From Alphaproteobacteria bacterium (lineage in GTDB: Bacteria; Pseudomonadota; Alphaproteobacteria; Micavibrionales; Micavibrionaceae): a DNA stretch of 64,000 nt. Position numbers and translations under genes: made by a program. The DNA lies in NCBI GenBank assembly GCA_030750865.1, contig JASMHE010000009.1, positions 1-64,000 on the forward strand, given 5' to 3'. This document shows positions 2 through 50,646 of this stretch, in pieces. The notes beneath the pieces were generated by a model, which ran no database searches, had not been told where the DNA came from, and was given only the letters and a program-made list of their open reading frames with translations. Positions within the stretch are counted from its first letter, which is position 1; each line of letters opens with the position of its first letter.

Positions 2-316
2 GTCGACAGGCCTGCCCGCATTCTCAAAAAATTACAATCTCTTTTGCGGCCTGATGGATCACTTATTGTGAGTGTTCCCCAGGAACGAATCAGAGGAGAT
101 TCGGCTTTGCCGGAAAATCTTTTTAACCTCAGCCGTTTCAAGTTTGAAAATGTTCACAGACAAAAACATTCTTTAAGCTCACTTTCCTCTCTTCTATCTG
201 AAACTGGTTATTCATATAAAGATCACCGGTATATCCACTCTATTATCAAAGCAAAAAACAAAAAGTGTTTTGGAAACCACAGTCTGGTGGTTTGCAGCGA
301 ACTGGCTAAAGCCTAA
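2..316 (+). CDS. Class I SAM-dependent methyltransferase, C-terminal part (5' end outside window; probably frameshifted)
   Basis: The frame is already open at base 2 and ends at TAA 314-316, so only the C-terminal ~104 residues are visible. The stretch LKKLQSLLRPDGSLIVSVP matches the strand and loop after the SAM-binding core of class I methyltransferases, which often reads L(r/k)PGG.l..s.P. It is followed by a helix like LSSLSSLLSETGY, the usual 'eL..ll.e.Gf' element. After about base 235 the encoded residues stop looking like this family (KNKKCFGNHSLVVCSEL). A neighbouring frame then carries a better-looking tail (next entry). Substrate is unknown. Confidence 0.5.
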   Translation, partial: VDRPARILKKLQSLLRPDGSLIVSVPQERIRGDSALPENLFNLSRFKFENVHRQKHSLSSLSSLLSETGYSYKDHRYIHSIIKAKNKKCFGNHSLVVCSELAKA

Positions 317-2694: not shown

Positions 2695-2723
2695 TTGCGC
2701 TTTGCGCCGAATCCCGCTAAAAA
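2695..2723 (+). promoter_or_regulatory. Predicted dnaX promoter, leaderless type
   Basis: TTGCGC (2695-2700), 17-bp spacer, TAAAAA (2718-2723). The -10 ends 6 nt before the dnaX ATG, so the predicted first transcribed base is at the start codon. No Shine-Dalgarno is present. Confidence 0.4.
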
Positions 2724-5894: not shown

Positions 5895-6341
5895 TCATGA
5901 ACACCATCCCTGCCGCTTGCCACCGTCATAGTGACGGGCATAATCCCGGTCCAGCATAAGCTGCGCAATATTCTGACGATCACTCGTCAAGAGATCGGCG
6001 ACGACACGCCCACCATATTTATCCTGTGCAATATTACGTACATATAAAACAGGCGCTGTACGCAACAGTTTTTCAAGGTATGTACGTGCTGCCAACGCCT
6101 TCTTCTTCTCGGATACACAAGATGCACGCAGCTCGGCTGCATCAATACCACGTACACGTACATTCGTCGTAATATCCTGATCAATCCAAATACGAATACG
6201 CAACCGCACCGTATCACCATCAATCACATCGACAAGCGCCGCTTCATAAGCCCCTGTCGGCATATGAAGCGTTGCAGCAACTGCGGACCGAAAGGGTTGC
6301 AACGTAATCAGGAGATAAAATATCAGACAAGCATATCGCAT
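5895..6341 (-). CDS. Secreted SNase-like (thermonuclease family) protein
   Basis: From ATG 6341 the protein is 148 aa: a hydrophobic signal peptide (MRYACLIFYLLITL..., cleavage near AVAA), then a staphylococcal-nuclease fold. Matching elements are VIDGDTVRLR (metal-binding Asp), VRVRGIDAAE (the R..GID..E catalytic signature) and DKYGGRVVADL (second Arg). The family hydrolyses DNA/RNA in a Ca2+-dependent way, so a periplasmic or extracellular nuclease is likely. An in-frame TTG at 6356 is an alternative start. I prefer the ATG because a promoter ends 6 nt before it. It converges with xthA. Confidence 0.8.
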   Translation of the reverse strand: MRYACLIFYLLITLQPFRSAVAATLHMPTGAYEAALVDVIDGDTVRLRIRIWIDQDITTNVRVRGIDAAELRASCVSEKKKALAARTYLEKLLRTAPVLYVRNIAQDKYGGRVVADLLTSDRQNIAQLMLDRDYARHYDGGKRQGWCS

Positions 6342-6347
6342 AAACCC

Positions 6348-6376
6348 AAAATACAACCATAGGTTTTATGACGCAA
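6348..6376 (-). promoter_or_regulatory. Predicted leaderless promoter of the SNase-like gene
   Basis: Reading the minus strand: TTGCGT (6376-6371), 17-bp spacer, TATTTT (6353-6348), then 6 nt to ATG 6341. No strong Shine-Dalgarno is present. Confidence 0.4.
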
Positions 6377-8994: not shown

Positions 8995-9023
8995 ATGAAA
9001 CGCACAGCACCTTAAAGTACATT
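8995..9023 (+). promoter_or_regulatory. Predicted leaderless rsmB promoter
   Basis: ATGAAA (8995-9000), 17-bp spacer, TACATT (9018-9023), 6 nt to the ATG at 9030; no Shine-Dalgarno. Confidence 0.38.
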
Positions 9024-9029
9024 TTAGAT

Positions 9030-10361
9030 ATGACAGACGCACAGCATAACCCGATCCAATCGCGCCAAGTCGCGCTTGACCTTCTTCTTTCCGTTCTTGA
9101 TAAAAAGCAGCCGCTCGACATCATGCTCGACCGGAATGAAGCCTACCGCGCGCTTGACCAGCGTGACCGCGCCTTTACCCGTATGATCGTTTCCACAACA
9201 TTGCGCAAGCTGGGGCAGATTGACGATCTGATCCGCCGCGCCGCAACACAATCAAGACCGCCATCGCCCCCTGCATTATATTGCTTACTGCGCCTGTCCG
9301 TGTGCCAGATTTGCTTTATGGATGTACCTGATTATGCCGTGGTTGACAGTGCCGTCCGTCTGGCTGAACGCAACAATATGGTCCGTCAAAAAGGATTCGT
9401 GAACGGACTGTTACGCACAATCGGCCGCGAATGGAAAGACTGGGTCAAAAAACAGGATGCAGGCAAAATCAATATTCCCGCATGGCTTTTGAAATACTGG
9501 ATCGCTGATTACGGTTTGCGCTGCGCGGCGGAAATCGCCCTTGCCAGCCAGAGCGAAGCCGCAACGGACATCACCCTGAAACAGACACACGATCCCGCCG
9601 CACCCGATATGCAGCATTGGGCCGATATGCTGGACGCCACCATATTGCCGACAGGCTCGCTGCGTTTACATCAACCACGCCCGATACCGGATCTGCACGG
9701 TTTTGACGATGGTGACTGGTGGGTACAGGACGCATCATCAGCCTTGCCTGCAACATTATTCCCCGGCGACATACGTGGCAGCACAATCGTTGATTTATGC
9801 GCCGCACCGGGCGGAAAAACAGCCCAGTTGGCCGCACAAGGGGCCAACGTCATTGCTGTCGATCGTTCTGCGCAACGTTTAAAACGCCTGCACGAAAATC
9901 TCGAACGCTTAAAACTCGGCGATCATGTTCATGTGGAAACGGCAGATGGTTCTGTCTGGAAACCGCAGCAAAAAATTGACCATATACTGGTTGATGCACC
10001 ATGTTCTGCCACCGGTACAATCCGCCGTCACCCTGATGTTATGCATTTACGCGACATTTCAGATATTGAACGCATGCAAAAAGCGCAGCAAAAATTACTA
10101 CGTAATGCATGGGATATGTTACCGATCGGCGGCGTGATGATTTATTGCACATGTTCGCTTCAACATGCCGAAGGCGAACACCAGATCACGGCCTTTCTGG
10201 ACGCAAATAAAAATGCCCGCCGCCTGCCCGTCCAAGCCGCAGAACTCGGCGATTTGTCCGAAATTATAACGCCCGACGGTGACGTGCGGGTCTTGCCACA
10301 AACATTGACAACGACCGGTGGCATGGACGGATTCTATATCGCCCGCCTTCAAAAATCATAA
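9030..10361 (+). CDS. rsmB: 16S rRNA (cytosine-967 C5)-methyltransferase
   Basis: 443 aa. The N-terminal ~130 residues form the NusB-like RNA-binding domain (RQVALDLLLSVL, LDQRDRAFTRMIV, LRLSVCQICFMDVPDYAVVDSAV). The C-terminal part is a Rossmann methyltransferase. It has SAM motif DLCAAPGGKTAQLA, motif II VIAVDRSAQRL, motif IV DAPCSATGTIRRHPD with the release Cys, and motif VI YCTCSLQHAEGE with the nucleophilic Cys. The product modifies 16S rRNA during ribosome assembly. Neighbourhood with DUF1674, rpe and a heparinase-like gene is typical of alphaproteobacteria. Confidence 0.93.
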   Translation: MTDAQHNPIQSRQVALDLLLSVLDKKQPLDIMLDRNEAYRALDQRDRAFTRMIVSTTLRKLGQIDDLIRRAATQSRPPSPPALYCLLRLSVCQICFMDVPDYAVVDSAVRLAERNNMVRQKGFVNGLLRTIGREWKDWVKKQDAGKINIPAWLLKYWIADYGLRCAAEIALASQSEAATDITLKQTHDPAAPDMQHWADMLDATILPTGSLRLHQPRPIPDLHGFDDGDWWVQDASSALPATLFPGDIRGSTIVDLCAAPGGKTAQLAAQGANVIAVDRSAQRLKRLHENLERLKLGDHVHVETADGSVWKPQQKIDHILVDAPCSATGTIRRHPDVMHLRDISDIERMQKAQQKLLRNAWDMLPIGGVMIYCTCSLQHAEGEHQITAFLDANKNARRLPVQAAELGDLSEIITPDGDVRVLPQTLTTTGGMDGFYIARLQKS

Positions 10362-14212: not shown

Positions 14213-14241
14213 TTGCAAATGTACTTGTTTTGTTCTATTGT
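14213..14241 (+). promoter_or_regulatory. Predicted leaderless radA promoter
   Basis: TTGCAA (14213-14218), 17-bp spacer, TATTGT (14236-14241), 6 nt to ATG 14248; no Shine-Dalgarno upstream. Confidence 0.45.
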
Positions 14242-24467: not shown

Positions 24468-24496
24468 TTGTATATTCCAGCGTTTTGTATTATAAT
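24468..24496 (+). promoter_or_regulatory. Strong predicted leaderless promoter
   Basis: TTGTAT (24468-24473), 17-bp spacer, perfect TATAAT (24491-24496), 6 nt to ATG 24503. The predicted +1 coincides with the start codon. Confidence 0.55.
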
Positions 24497-24502
24497 ATTA
24501 AC

Positions 24503-24853
24503 ATGAGTTTCAAAGTCATAGACAACCCGCAATTCGCCAAGAAAAACGCAAAGGCGGGCTTTAAAAACCACGAATTCAAGAAATTGGCAGGTCTTTTTTC
24601 GCACGGCGCAACGCACAGAGTGCTTTATGACATCGCCGTTGATGTCGATTTTGACGAAGGACTGGCCACATTCACCTATTACCGTTCAAATGCCTATATT
24701 CCTTTTCTGACCTTCATTGTCCGCCAGGTCGGGCCACGCACCATGATGTATGAAGTCTGGAAAGACGAAAAAGGCCGCATCACGAAAAGCGGTATGTTTG
24801 AACGCGCTTTCGAGAAACTCGAAATCGAAATCAATGATCTGATTGAGTCCTGA
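24503..24853 (+). CDS. Hypothetical protein (116 aa)
   Basis: Not recognised. Basic N-terminus (FAKKNAKAGFKNHEFKKLAG), then beta-rich sequence (VLYDIAVDVDFDEGLATFTYYRS, FLTFIVRQVG, MMYEVWKDEKGRI) and a C-terminal helix (FERAFEKLEIEIND). No signal peptide or membrane segment. The ATG at 24503 has no Shine-Dalgarno; a consensus -10 sits 6 nt before it. It is divergent from the yfgM-like/bamB/der operon, about 107 bp away. Confidence 0.65.
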   Translation: MSFKVIDNPQFAKKNAKAGFKNHEFKKLAGLFSHGATHRVLYDIAVDVDFDEGLATFTYYRSNAYIPFLTFIVRQVGPRTMMYEVWKDEKGRITKSGMFERAFEKLEIEINDLIES

Positions 24854-38858: not shown

Positions 38859-38888
38859 TTGACATATCATAAATAACTACGCTATAGA
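38859..38888 (+). promoter_or_regulatory. Predicted leaderless promoter
   Basis: Consensus TTGACA (38859-38864), 18-bp spacer, TATAGA (38883-38888), then 6 nt to ATG 38895. No Shine-Dalgarno. Confidence 0.55.
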
Positions 38889-48930: not shown

Positions 48931-49776
48931 ATGACACACCATCACGACCACAACAGCCACGCAGACCGACCACGATTGAAGGTCTTATTCAAAACAGCGA
49001 CCGAAGATGCGCGCTGCGGAGCTTGCAATCGTCCGTTGCGTACAGGCATCGGCGTGCGGGTCGAAGACATGGACACAGGCGCGATATCACATCTTGGTCC
49101 GACCTGCCTTGAAAAGAACACAGGCGTAAAACATTATAATGTGCCCGTTGTCAGTGTCGGTGATATCACCGAAGGCGGCGCATCCTCCCAAGACACAGCA
49201 CAGGGCAAAGGCGTCCAGAAACATACATCACGCAGCGATTACACACGGGCCGCCCATGACGCGTTGAAAGAACGCCGCCTGAATGCTATCGCCAACATCG
49301 AACTGCGCGCATACGAACTTCCCGCCCGTGGCTTCCGGCAGGATATCCTGACACCGCAGGTCTTTTATGAATTACCGCGTGATCCGGCCGCGCTGACCAC
49401 AGACAAAGATATTCGCGCCGTTGAAAACCGCGTTGAATTCACCATGCGGCGTGATAAATTCCGTGCCCCTGATCTGGAAACACTCCAGCATTGCATGCTG
49501 ACCGTGGTGCAGATTGATCACCTGCTGAAAACGCGCGACAAAATCAAATCACGCGATCTGCAAATGCTCGATAGCTTCCGCACGCAGTTAACGCGCAATT
49601 TCGGCCTGACCGATGCGCAAATGACACAGATCGAGCGCATGACCTATTTTTACAAATCATTCCATGTGCCAAACCGCATCAAGGACATCCGTTTCCCGCA
49701 AACAGAAGAACGCAAGCAGCAGCGCCTTGCCGCAGCCGACCTGAAAAAAGGGCAGCTCACGCTTGATTTCGGATAA
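48931..49776 (+). CDS. Hypothetical protein with N-terminal Cys cluster
   Basis: 281 aa, not recognised. A His-rich start is followed by CGACNRPLRTG (Cys at 32 and 35) and, ~25 residues later, LGPTCLEKN. This looks like an incomplete zinc ribbon. The middle and C-terminal parts are helical and charged (YTRAAHDALKERRLNAIANIE, LETLQHCMLTVVQIDHLLKTR, KQQRLAAADLKKGQ). No signal peptide. It may be nucleic-acid related given the Cys cluster and mutM downstream, but this is guesswork. Confidence 0.6.
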   Translation: MTHHHDHNSHADRPRLKVLFKTATEDARCGACNRPLRTGIGVRVEDMDTGAISHLGPTCLEKNTGVKHYNVPVVSVGDITEGGASSQDTAQGKGVQKHTSRSDYTRAAHDALKERRLNAIANIELRAYELPARGFRQDILTPQVFYELPRDPAALTTDKDIRAVENRVEFTMRRDKFRAPDLETLQHCMLTVVQIDHLLKTRDKIKSRDLQMLDSFRTQLTRNFGLTDAQMTQIERMTYFYKSFHVPNRIKDIRFPQTEERKQQRLAAADLKKGQLTLDFG

Positions 49777-49791
49777 AAACCCCTCTATCTA
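49763..49791 (+). promoter_or_regulatory. Predicted leaderless mutM promoter
   Basis: TTGATT (49763-49768), 17-bp spacer, TATCTA (49786-49791), 6 nt to ATG 49798. It overlaps the end of the preceding coding region; no Shine-Dalgarno. Confidence 0.42.
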
Positions 49792-49797
49792 AACGAT

Positions 49798-50646
49798 ATG
49801 CCTGAATTACCGGAAGTTGAAACTGTGTGTGGCGGCCTGCGCCAAACAATACTGGACGATCCCATTGCGGATATCTGCCAGCGCCGCGCTGATTTACGCA
49901 TTCCCTTTCCCGCCACGTTACAAGACGACCTGAACGGCCAGACCATCACACATATCCGGCGGCGGTCCAAATATATTCTGGCGGACCTGACAAACGGCAA
50001 AACACTTGTGATCCATCTGGGCATGTCGGGCCGCATCCTGATTACCGAAGCCGGACAATCCTATACACCGCAAAAACACGATCACTTCATTGTCGATTTC
50101 CGGTCCGGCCGCAAACTGGTGTACACCGACCCGCGCCGCTTCGGTATGATCTTCACCGAAGACACGGACGCGCTCGATGACCATAAAGCTTTCCGGCATC
50201 TCGGGCCGGAGCCGCTTTCCAATCATTTCGACACAGACTATTTCCACCAGCAGCTCCGCAAACGCAAAACACCGGTCAAAACCGCGCTGCTGGATCAAGA
50301 GCTGGTCGTCGGCATCGGAAACATCTATGCCTGCGAAGCGCTGTATTTTGCCGGCATTCATCCGGCGCGCCCTTGCAACAGCTTATCCCGCGATGAAACC
50401 GATGCGCTATACCGCGCCATTCGCCATGTTTTGCGCATTGCAATCGAGGCCGGGGGTTCAACCCTGAAAGATTACAAACATGCCGACGGTCAAATGGGCT
50501 ATTTCCAATTCCAGTTCGCCGTGTACGATCAGGAAGGCAAGCCGTGCAAAAATTGCGACTGCGGGCAGACATCCAAAGAAGATCGTGTACAAAAGATTGT
50601 CCAGAGTGGACGTTCCACCTATTTTTGCGCTACAAAACAAGTATGA
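49798..50646 (+). CDS. mutM: Formamidopyrimidine-DNA glycosylase (Fpg/MutM)
   Basis: Removes 8-oxoguanine and other oxidised purines. The 282-aa protein begins PELPEVETV (P2 and E3 are catalytic). It has the lysine (K~60) of RSKYIL, HLGMSGR, VGIGNIYACEAL, and the H2TH region. The C-terminal zinc finger is atypical: the first pair is CKNC (plus an extra CG), but the second reads FCATKQV, so the fourth Cys ligand (normally C-P-x-C) is Lys. The stop overlaps the next start (ATGA). Confidence 0.93.
   Translation: MPELPEVETVCGGLRQTILDDPIADICQRRADLRIPFPATLQDDLNGQTITHIRRRSKYILADLTNGKTLVIHLGMSGRILITEAGQSYTPQKHDHFIVDFRSGRKLVYTDPRRFGMIFTEDTDALDDHKAFRHLGPEPLSNHFDTDYFHQQLRKRKTPVKTALLDQELVVGIGNIYACEALYFAGIHPARPCNSLSRDETDALYRAIRHVLRIAIEAGGSTLKDYKHADGQMGYFQFQFAVYDQEGKPCKNCDCGQTSKEDRVQKIVQSGRSTYFCATKQV

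Follow-up and report, generated by a model that had tools for sequence, protein, structure and literature searches.

A minor class of genes in this alphaproteobacterial lineage carries a -10 hexamer immediately upstream of the start codon, and the best explanation, to which we assign a probability of about 0.88, is that these hexamers are sigma70-type promoters whose transcripts would begin at the A of the ATG. By the spacing rule, a -10 hexamer occupying positions -12 to -7 relative to the start codon puts the sigma70 start point on that A. The resulting mRNA would be leaderless, beginning with AUG, and would probably be translated by 70S ribosomes acting on the 5'-terminal AUG. Such a class, kept across a bacterial family and estimated at roughly 3 to 8% of genes, would stand beside Shine-Dalgarno starts and starts with neither signal, and would count dnaX and a gene at position 24503 among its true members. 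The hexamers occupy a fixed position with constant spacing, are accompanied by enriched -35 and extended -10 signals, and are conserved; from this pattern we infer the transcription start point and leaderless translation.

Candidate promoter-start pairs in the window

The window, the whole 64,000-nt stretch of DNA analyzed here, belongs to contig 9 of a 2.19-Mb genome in 14 contigs. The best named relatives of its dnaX are the alphaproteobacterial MAG SJ137 (55% identity) and Micavibrio sp. UBA6139 (54%). The 3' region of the 16S rRNA reads GGATCACCTCCTTTCT, so the anti-Shine-Dalgarno sequence is intact. A preliminary description of the window had named seven genes with a promoter ending 6 nt before ATG, and a pattern search recovers each hexamer pair once, exactly where named. 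The gap between the -10 and the ATG is exactly 6 nt in all seven, the spacer is 17 nt (18 for gene 38895), and none of the starts is preceded by a Shine-Dalgarno sequence (AGGA, GGAG, GAGG or AAGG within -20 to -5), although the 16S tail can pair. Pfam and NCBIfam matches bear out the gene names DnaX, RsmB, RadA, MutM and a staphylococcal-nuclease-like protein. The genes offered as controls with a clear ribosome site hold up for icd, groES and gene 62896, which have good Shine-Dalgarno sequences, but not for rpsT, which has just AAAGAGA. Four of the seven -10 hexamers fit TANNNT, while those of dnaX, mutM and gene 38895 end in A.

Among the 30 window genes without a Shine-Dalgarno sequence in our script's gene calls, TA stands at -12 in 8, against a background of 6.9% given by the TA rate over other offsets in the own-genome sample minus the window (binomial P 8e-4). 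Strict TANNNT occurs at -12 in 4 of the 30, against 2.0% (P 0.003). Chance would account for about 2 of the 8, and the eighth gene, at 50643, which overlaps the mutM stop codon, looks like such a match. Leaderless starts are the best reading for gene 24503 and dnaX, and radA, the nuclease-like gene, mutM and gene 38895 are possible members. In the orthologue start comparisons behind these assignments, matches under 60 bits and rows without a candidate start were dropped.

Gene 24503 (24503..24853, + strand) encodes a 116-residue protein of unknown family, with no Pfam or NCBIfam match, and is predicted to be leaderless. It is preceded by a -35 TTGTAT found by pattern search (24468..24473, +) and a -10 TATAAT (24491..24496, +) that ends 6 nt before the ATG and is kept in orthologues. 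Orthologues occur in 10 of 28 relatives, and TANNNT lies 6 or 7 nt before the start codon in the own copy and all ten of these, with the hexamer at -12 in 8 genomes and at -13 in 3; none of these copies has a Shine-Dalgarno sequence. A TG directly precedes the hexamer in all ten orthologues; the own copy carries a TTG -35 rather than this TG. For the nine orthologues that were properly extracted, the protein alignment begins at the N-terminus. The remaining one, in G001 (L132 and L133, contig 47), is split into two overlapping matches in different frames, reflecting either a frameshift or an assembly error. The chosen start in G008 lies 4 codons downstream of the projected one, and the G007 orthologue starts with GTG. 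This conservation strongly supports gene 24503 as a predicted leaderless gene.

The case for radA is partial. The pattern search gives a -35 TTGCAA (14213..14218, +) and a -10 TATTGT (14236..14241, +; 6 nt before ATG 14248). Counting the own copy, 4 of 27 genomes have TANNNT at -12. The spacer also holds GTAC-N7-GTTC (14221..14235, +), which abuts the -10 and is one base off GTTC-N7-GTTC, which we take to be the alphaproteobacterial form of the LexA box. The exact direct repeat precedes radA in 6 of the 27 genomes (G001, G004, G007, G008, G011 and G012), and a LexA-type box lies ∼127 nt upstream of recA. A LexA regulon behind the listed repair genes was considered and rejected: GTTC-N7-GTTCT is not enriched across the genome, with 17 occurrences versus 22 of the reversed control.

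For mutM, the leaderless arrangement is weakly indicated. A -10-like TATCTA (49786..49791, +) precedes its ATG at 49798, the -35 TTGATT (49763-49768, +) sits in the final stretch of the preceding gene, and mutM itself begins 21 nt after that gene. Its start is fixed by an M-P N-terminus in 23 of 23 copies, of which, own included, 7 have TA at -12 and 2 have TANNNT (G006 and G007); the closest copies include those of G001, with TATCAA, and G010, with TATATA. The evidence is similarly weak for the nuclease-like gene on the minus strand, with a -35 TTGCGT from the pattern search (6371..6376, -) and a -10 TATTTT (6348..6353, -) 6 nt before its ATG at 6341: one of four homologues has TANNNT at -12 (G022, TAGACT). 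The hexamer TACATT before the rsmB ATG at 9030 (pattern search, 9018..9023, +) is probably a chance match. Its -35 (ATGAAA) is poor, the start is variable, and none of the relatives listed has TANNNT at -12. Gene 38895 is an orphan, with no match in 28 relatives and no Pfam or NCBIfam family; the pattern search places its -35 TTGACA at 38859..38864 (+), and its -10 TATAGA follows at 38883..38888 (+) after the 18-nt spacer.

Enrichment of the hexamer at -12 and its interpretation

The position of the hexamer was counted in 837 kb of the own genome (G000) and in samples of 400 kb from each of three other members of the family (G004, G011 and G012). A simple codon-based, home-made gene finder called 1,568 ORFs, and the first ATG was taken as the start, a rule that is blind to upstream signals yet misplaces some starts and so dilutes the signal. 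A Shine-Dalgarno sequence is absent from 896 of the ORFs. Of these, 57 have TANNNT at -12, whereas the other offsets from -60 to -7 average 18.1 (SD 4.2, maximum 28). The neighboring offset -11, with 10, is below that mean, and -13, with 26, is somewhat above it. The enrichment proposed in the preliminary description for genes without a Shine-Dalgarno sequence is thus present, modestly in the own genome outside the window (14/336 versus 6.6, P 0.008) and strongly when the three relatives are taken by themselves (39/530 versus 10.9). The peak falls at -12 in G000, G011 and G012, and is spread over -14 to -12 in G004.

Two further promoter signals accompany the hexamer. TTG at -35 is found in 17.5% of genes with TA at -12 versus 4.3% of other genes without a Shine-Dalgarno sequence, and TG directly before the hexamer, the extended -10, in 26.3% of genes with TANNNT at -12 versus 5.6%. 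Together with the -12 peak, these enrichments argue for promoters over A+T-rich noise. No maximum at -12 appears among the 2,217 internal in-frame ATGs of the first sample, and the same script applied to 350 kb of E. coli K-12 gives no peak (1 of 125 ORFs without a Shine-Dalgarno sequence at -12 versus 2.1).

In 426 genes, the first-ATG start coincides with the start of a reciprocal-best orthologue. Of the 223 among them without a Shine-Dalgarno sequence, 23 have TANNNT at -12, versus 4.8 (maximum 9). Expressed over all start-confirmed genes, the excess at -12 is 4.3% for TANNNT and 7.1% for TA. The corresponding values are 4.6% and 8.3% in the relatives and 3.4% and 4.2% in the own genome (128 genes), where the TA count at -12 (11) merely equals that of the top other offset (11). 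From this start-confirmed excess, the leaderless class is put at roughly 3 to 8% of genes, a small, minor class. The hexamer is also co-conserved. Of 296 orthologue pairs whose starts coincide (median identity 58%), 6 share TANNNT at -12, versus 1.35 expected, and no other offset from -30 to -6 yields more than 1 such pair. These six pairs derive from four genes, namely gene 24503 (three pairs), radA, a FlgC-like gene and one more.

A rather unlikely alternative is that the promoters are genuine but yield very short leaders, or a second, minor transcript beside a longer leadered one. In its favor are hexamers one or two positions further upstream, seen for gene 24503 (-13 in 3 of 11 genomes) and dnaX (-13 or -14 in 4 of 23), and the 21 nt between mutM and the gene before it. 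In Sinorhizobium, 59 of 171 leaderless starts in the available part of the report occur with a further start site (PMC3616915). Against it, the pooled maximum lies at -12 (57), not at -11 (10) or -13 (26; mean 18.1).

It is very improbable that leaderless starts are the mark of one functional group, the repair and replication genes; the preliminary description had suggested that much of that set is leaderless. The idea draws on dnaX, radA and mutM among the seven, on recQ elsewhere in the genome and on xseA in the relative G011. However, of the 18 strict matches in the own genome, 14 lie outside the window, and the 13 annotated (with NCBIfam only; the match in L120 was left out) include a single repair gene, RecQ. 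The others are metabolic, flagellar, translation, export or unknown genes (FlgC-like, PheS, YqgE, cysteine desulfurase, TatB, acetolactate synthase, AMP nucleosidase, FliR, Aat and three without a match), and of the seven, rsmB lacks conservation and mutM has weak support. A division into two start classes, also suggested there, proves too simple, since nearly half of the window's starts carry neither signal: of 48, 18 have a Shine-Dalgarno sequence, 8 have TA at -12 without one and 22 have neither. In G011, the first ATGs of the divergent genes putA and xseA are separated by only 57 nt (L278:11618-11674), and each gene has TATTNT at -12; two leaderless promoters would share this 57-nt region.

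Scarcely credible for the class is the reading that the hexamers are chance A+T-rich matches selected by a reader seeking them: it would account for the two or so window genes expected by chance, of which rsmB and the ORF at 50643 look like cases, but it is contradicted by the sharp -12 peak, pooled and in G000, G011 and G012, with its -35 and TG signals and co-conservation, and by the absence of this peak from E. coli.

The dnaX promoter and its GANTC site

The dnaX promoter consists of a -35 TTGCGC found by pattern search (2695..2700, +) and a -10 TAAAAA (2718..2723, +) 6 nt before ATG 2730. The spacer contains GAATC (2709..2713, +), a GANTC site of the CcrM type, 4 nt upstream of the -10. 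The promoter was compared in 23 genomes by best-scoring placement over -10 offsets of -15 to -10 and spacers of 16-18; G001, G013, G015, G016, G021 and G027, which have no readable full start, were left out, and the starts of G020, G023 and G026, 15-28 codons upstream of the projected start, are uncertain. TTG-17-TA with TA within -14 to -12 is present in 14 of the 23, own included. The hexamer lies at -13 or -14 in four, and G004 has TTG at spacer 18. This pattern strongly supports dnaX as a putative leaderless gene. The arrangement is not general in Alphaproteobacteria by the test for TANNNT at -12, as 80 named members show no clear peak at -12 (2 of 80, with 4 at -13, 3 at -14 and 4 at -16). 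In seven dnaX upstream regions from Sphingomonadales (L081, L084, L089, L090, L092, L093 and L095; order assigned in part by genus name), a block CTTCGACA is followed by TANNN[TA] 12-14 nt upstream of a candidate ATG, which may represent a further leaderless dnaX promoter. In the window, a small SRP RNA gene lies at 691-787. As a source of the conserved block before dnaX, SRP RNA was rejected: it is ∼1.9 kb upstream, and no RNA family is found at 2400-2800 with E up to 1.

The least expected result is the fixed GAATC before the dnaX -10. GANTC lies between the -35 and -10 in 10 of the 23 genomes, always 4 nt from the -10. All ten, the own genome among them, belong to the family, in which 15 members have a readable start; none of 8 genomes from other families of the order has GANTC at that place. 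Base composition does not explain the coincidence, because GANTC is depleted in all four sampled genomes (own, G004, G011 and G012; observed/expected 0.36 to 0.55 against base composition). In these genomes, 10 promoters of the form TTG-16..18-TA have GANTC at gap 4, versus 0-4 at each other gap, and three of the ten are dnaX orthologues. When the -35 is not required, gap 4 does not stand out in the GANTC-to-TANNNT spacing, with 9 cases where counts for gaps 0-19 run from 3 to 17.

Candidates for the regulators are encoded as well. GcrA sites often lie between the -10 and -35, and GcrA is present in 27 of 29 genomes, own included (E 1e-45). A single N6/N4 methylase of the own genome (N6_N4_Mtase) passes the cut-off. 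It carries a RAMA domain, and the NCBIfam model that it matches best is CcrM, where its 610.6 bits fall short of the model cut-off of 830. GcrA activates at methylated GANTC with the consensus YGAKTCK, and replication genes are among its targets in the available part of the published account (PMC7987155). The own dnaX site, CCGAATCCC, fits this consensus in part only on either strand. CcrM/GcrA control of dnaX is plausible from these sequence features. A fuller proposal, to which we would give slightly less than even odds, is that in this family CcrM methylation and GcrA gate a leaderless dnaX promoter via the GANTC 4 nt upstream of the -10, such that the passing replication fork would reset transcription of a replisome gene whose mRNA requires no leader.

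Comparison with known systems

These comparisons support extending leaderless expression to an uncultured lineage near Micavibrio, where start-codon annotation should add a -10-before-ATG model to the Shine-Dalgarno model. At the dnaX promoter, a single 35-nt element may combine leaderless expression with control by cell-cycle methylation. In the open-access literature, which misses most subscription journals, a search for Micavibrio with leaderless finds only work on Liberibacter genomes, and dnaX and GcrA appear together only in PMC4117421.

Leaderless gene starts are already known, including in Alphaproteobacteria. As given in the available part of its report, Caulobacter crescentus has 375 leaderless mRNAs (9.6% of CDSs) and low Shine-Dalgarno use (24.6%), with dnaX and hemE as the two leaderless mRNAs known before (PMC4117421). 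The likeness extends to an alphaproteobacterial host, dnaX, predicted to be leaderless in the window's lineage, and low Shine-Dalgarno use, whereas the Caulobacter set comes from RNA mapping and ribosome profiling and that of the window's lineage, an estimated 3-8%, from sequence and conservation (PMC4117421). In Sinorhizobium meliloti, with its large tripartite genome, 171 transcription starts at the first base of AUG were mapped experimentally, in contrast to the sequence-based set described here (PMC3616915). In Deinococcus-Thermus bacteria, too, leaderless mRNA arises where a -10 motif lies immediately before the ORF, a mode common in that phylum and a minority one in the window's lineage (PMC12340547).

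For the dnaX site, the nearest parallel is the GcrA/CcrM-controlled promoters of Caulobacterales, which share the GANTC in the promoter, the presence of GcrA and a CcrM-like methylase, and DNA replication genes among the targets; the available part of that account does not contain the word dnaX, and the window's dnaX site meets YGAKTCK in part only (PMC7987155). Among the close matches to the class as a whole are the ‘TA-led’ genes of Zheng et al. (2011), with TANNNT at about -12, recorded in the available part of that survey in 2 of 117 alphaproteobacterial genomes, at 4.7 and 7.8% (PMC3160421). Signal and position are identical to those in the window's lineage, which would add a further case to these two alphaproteobacterial genomes (PMC3160421).
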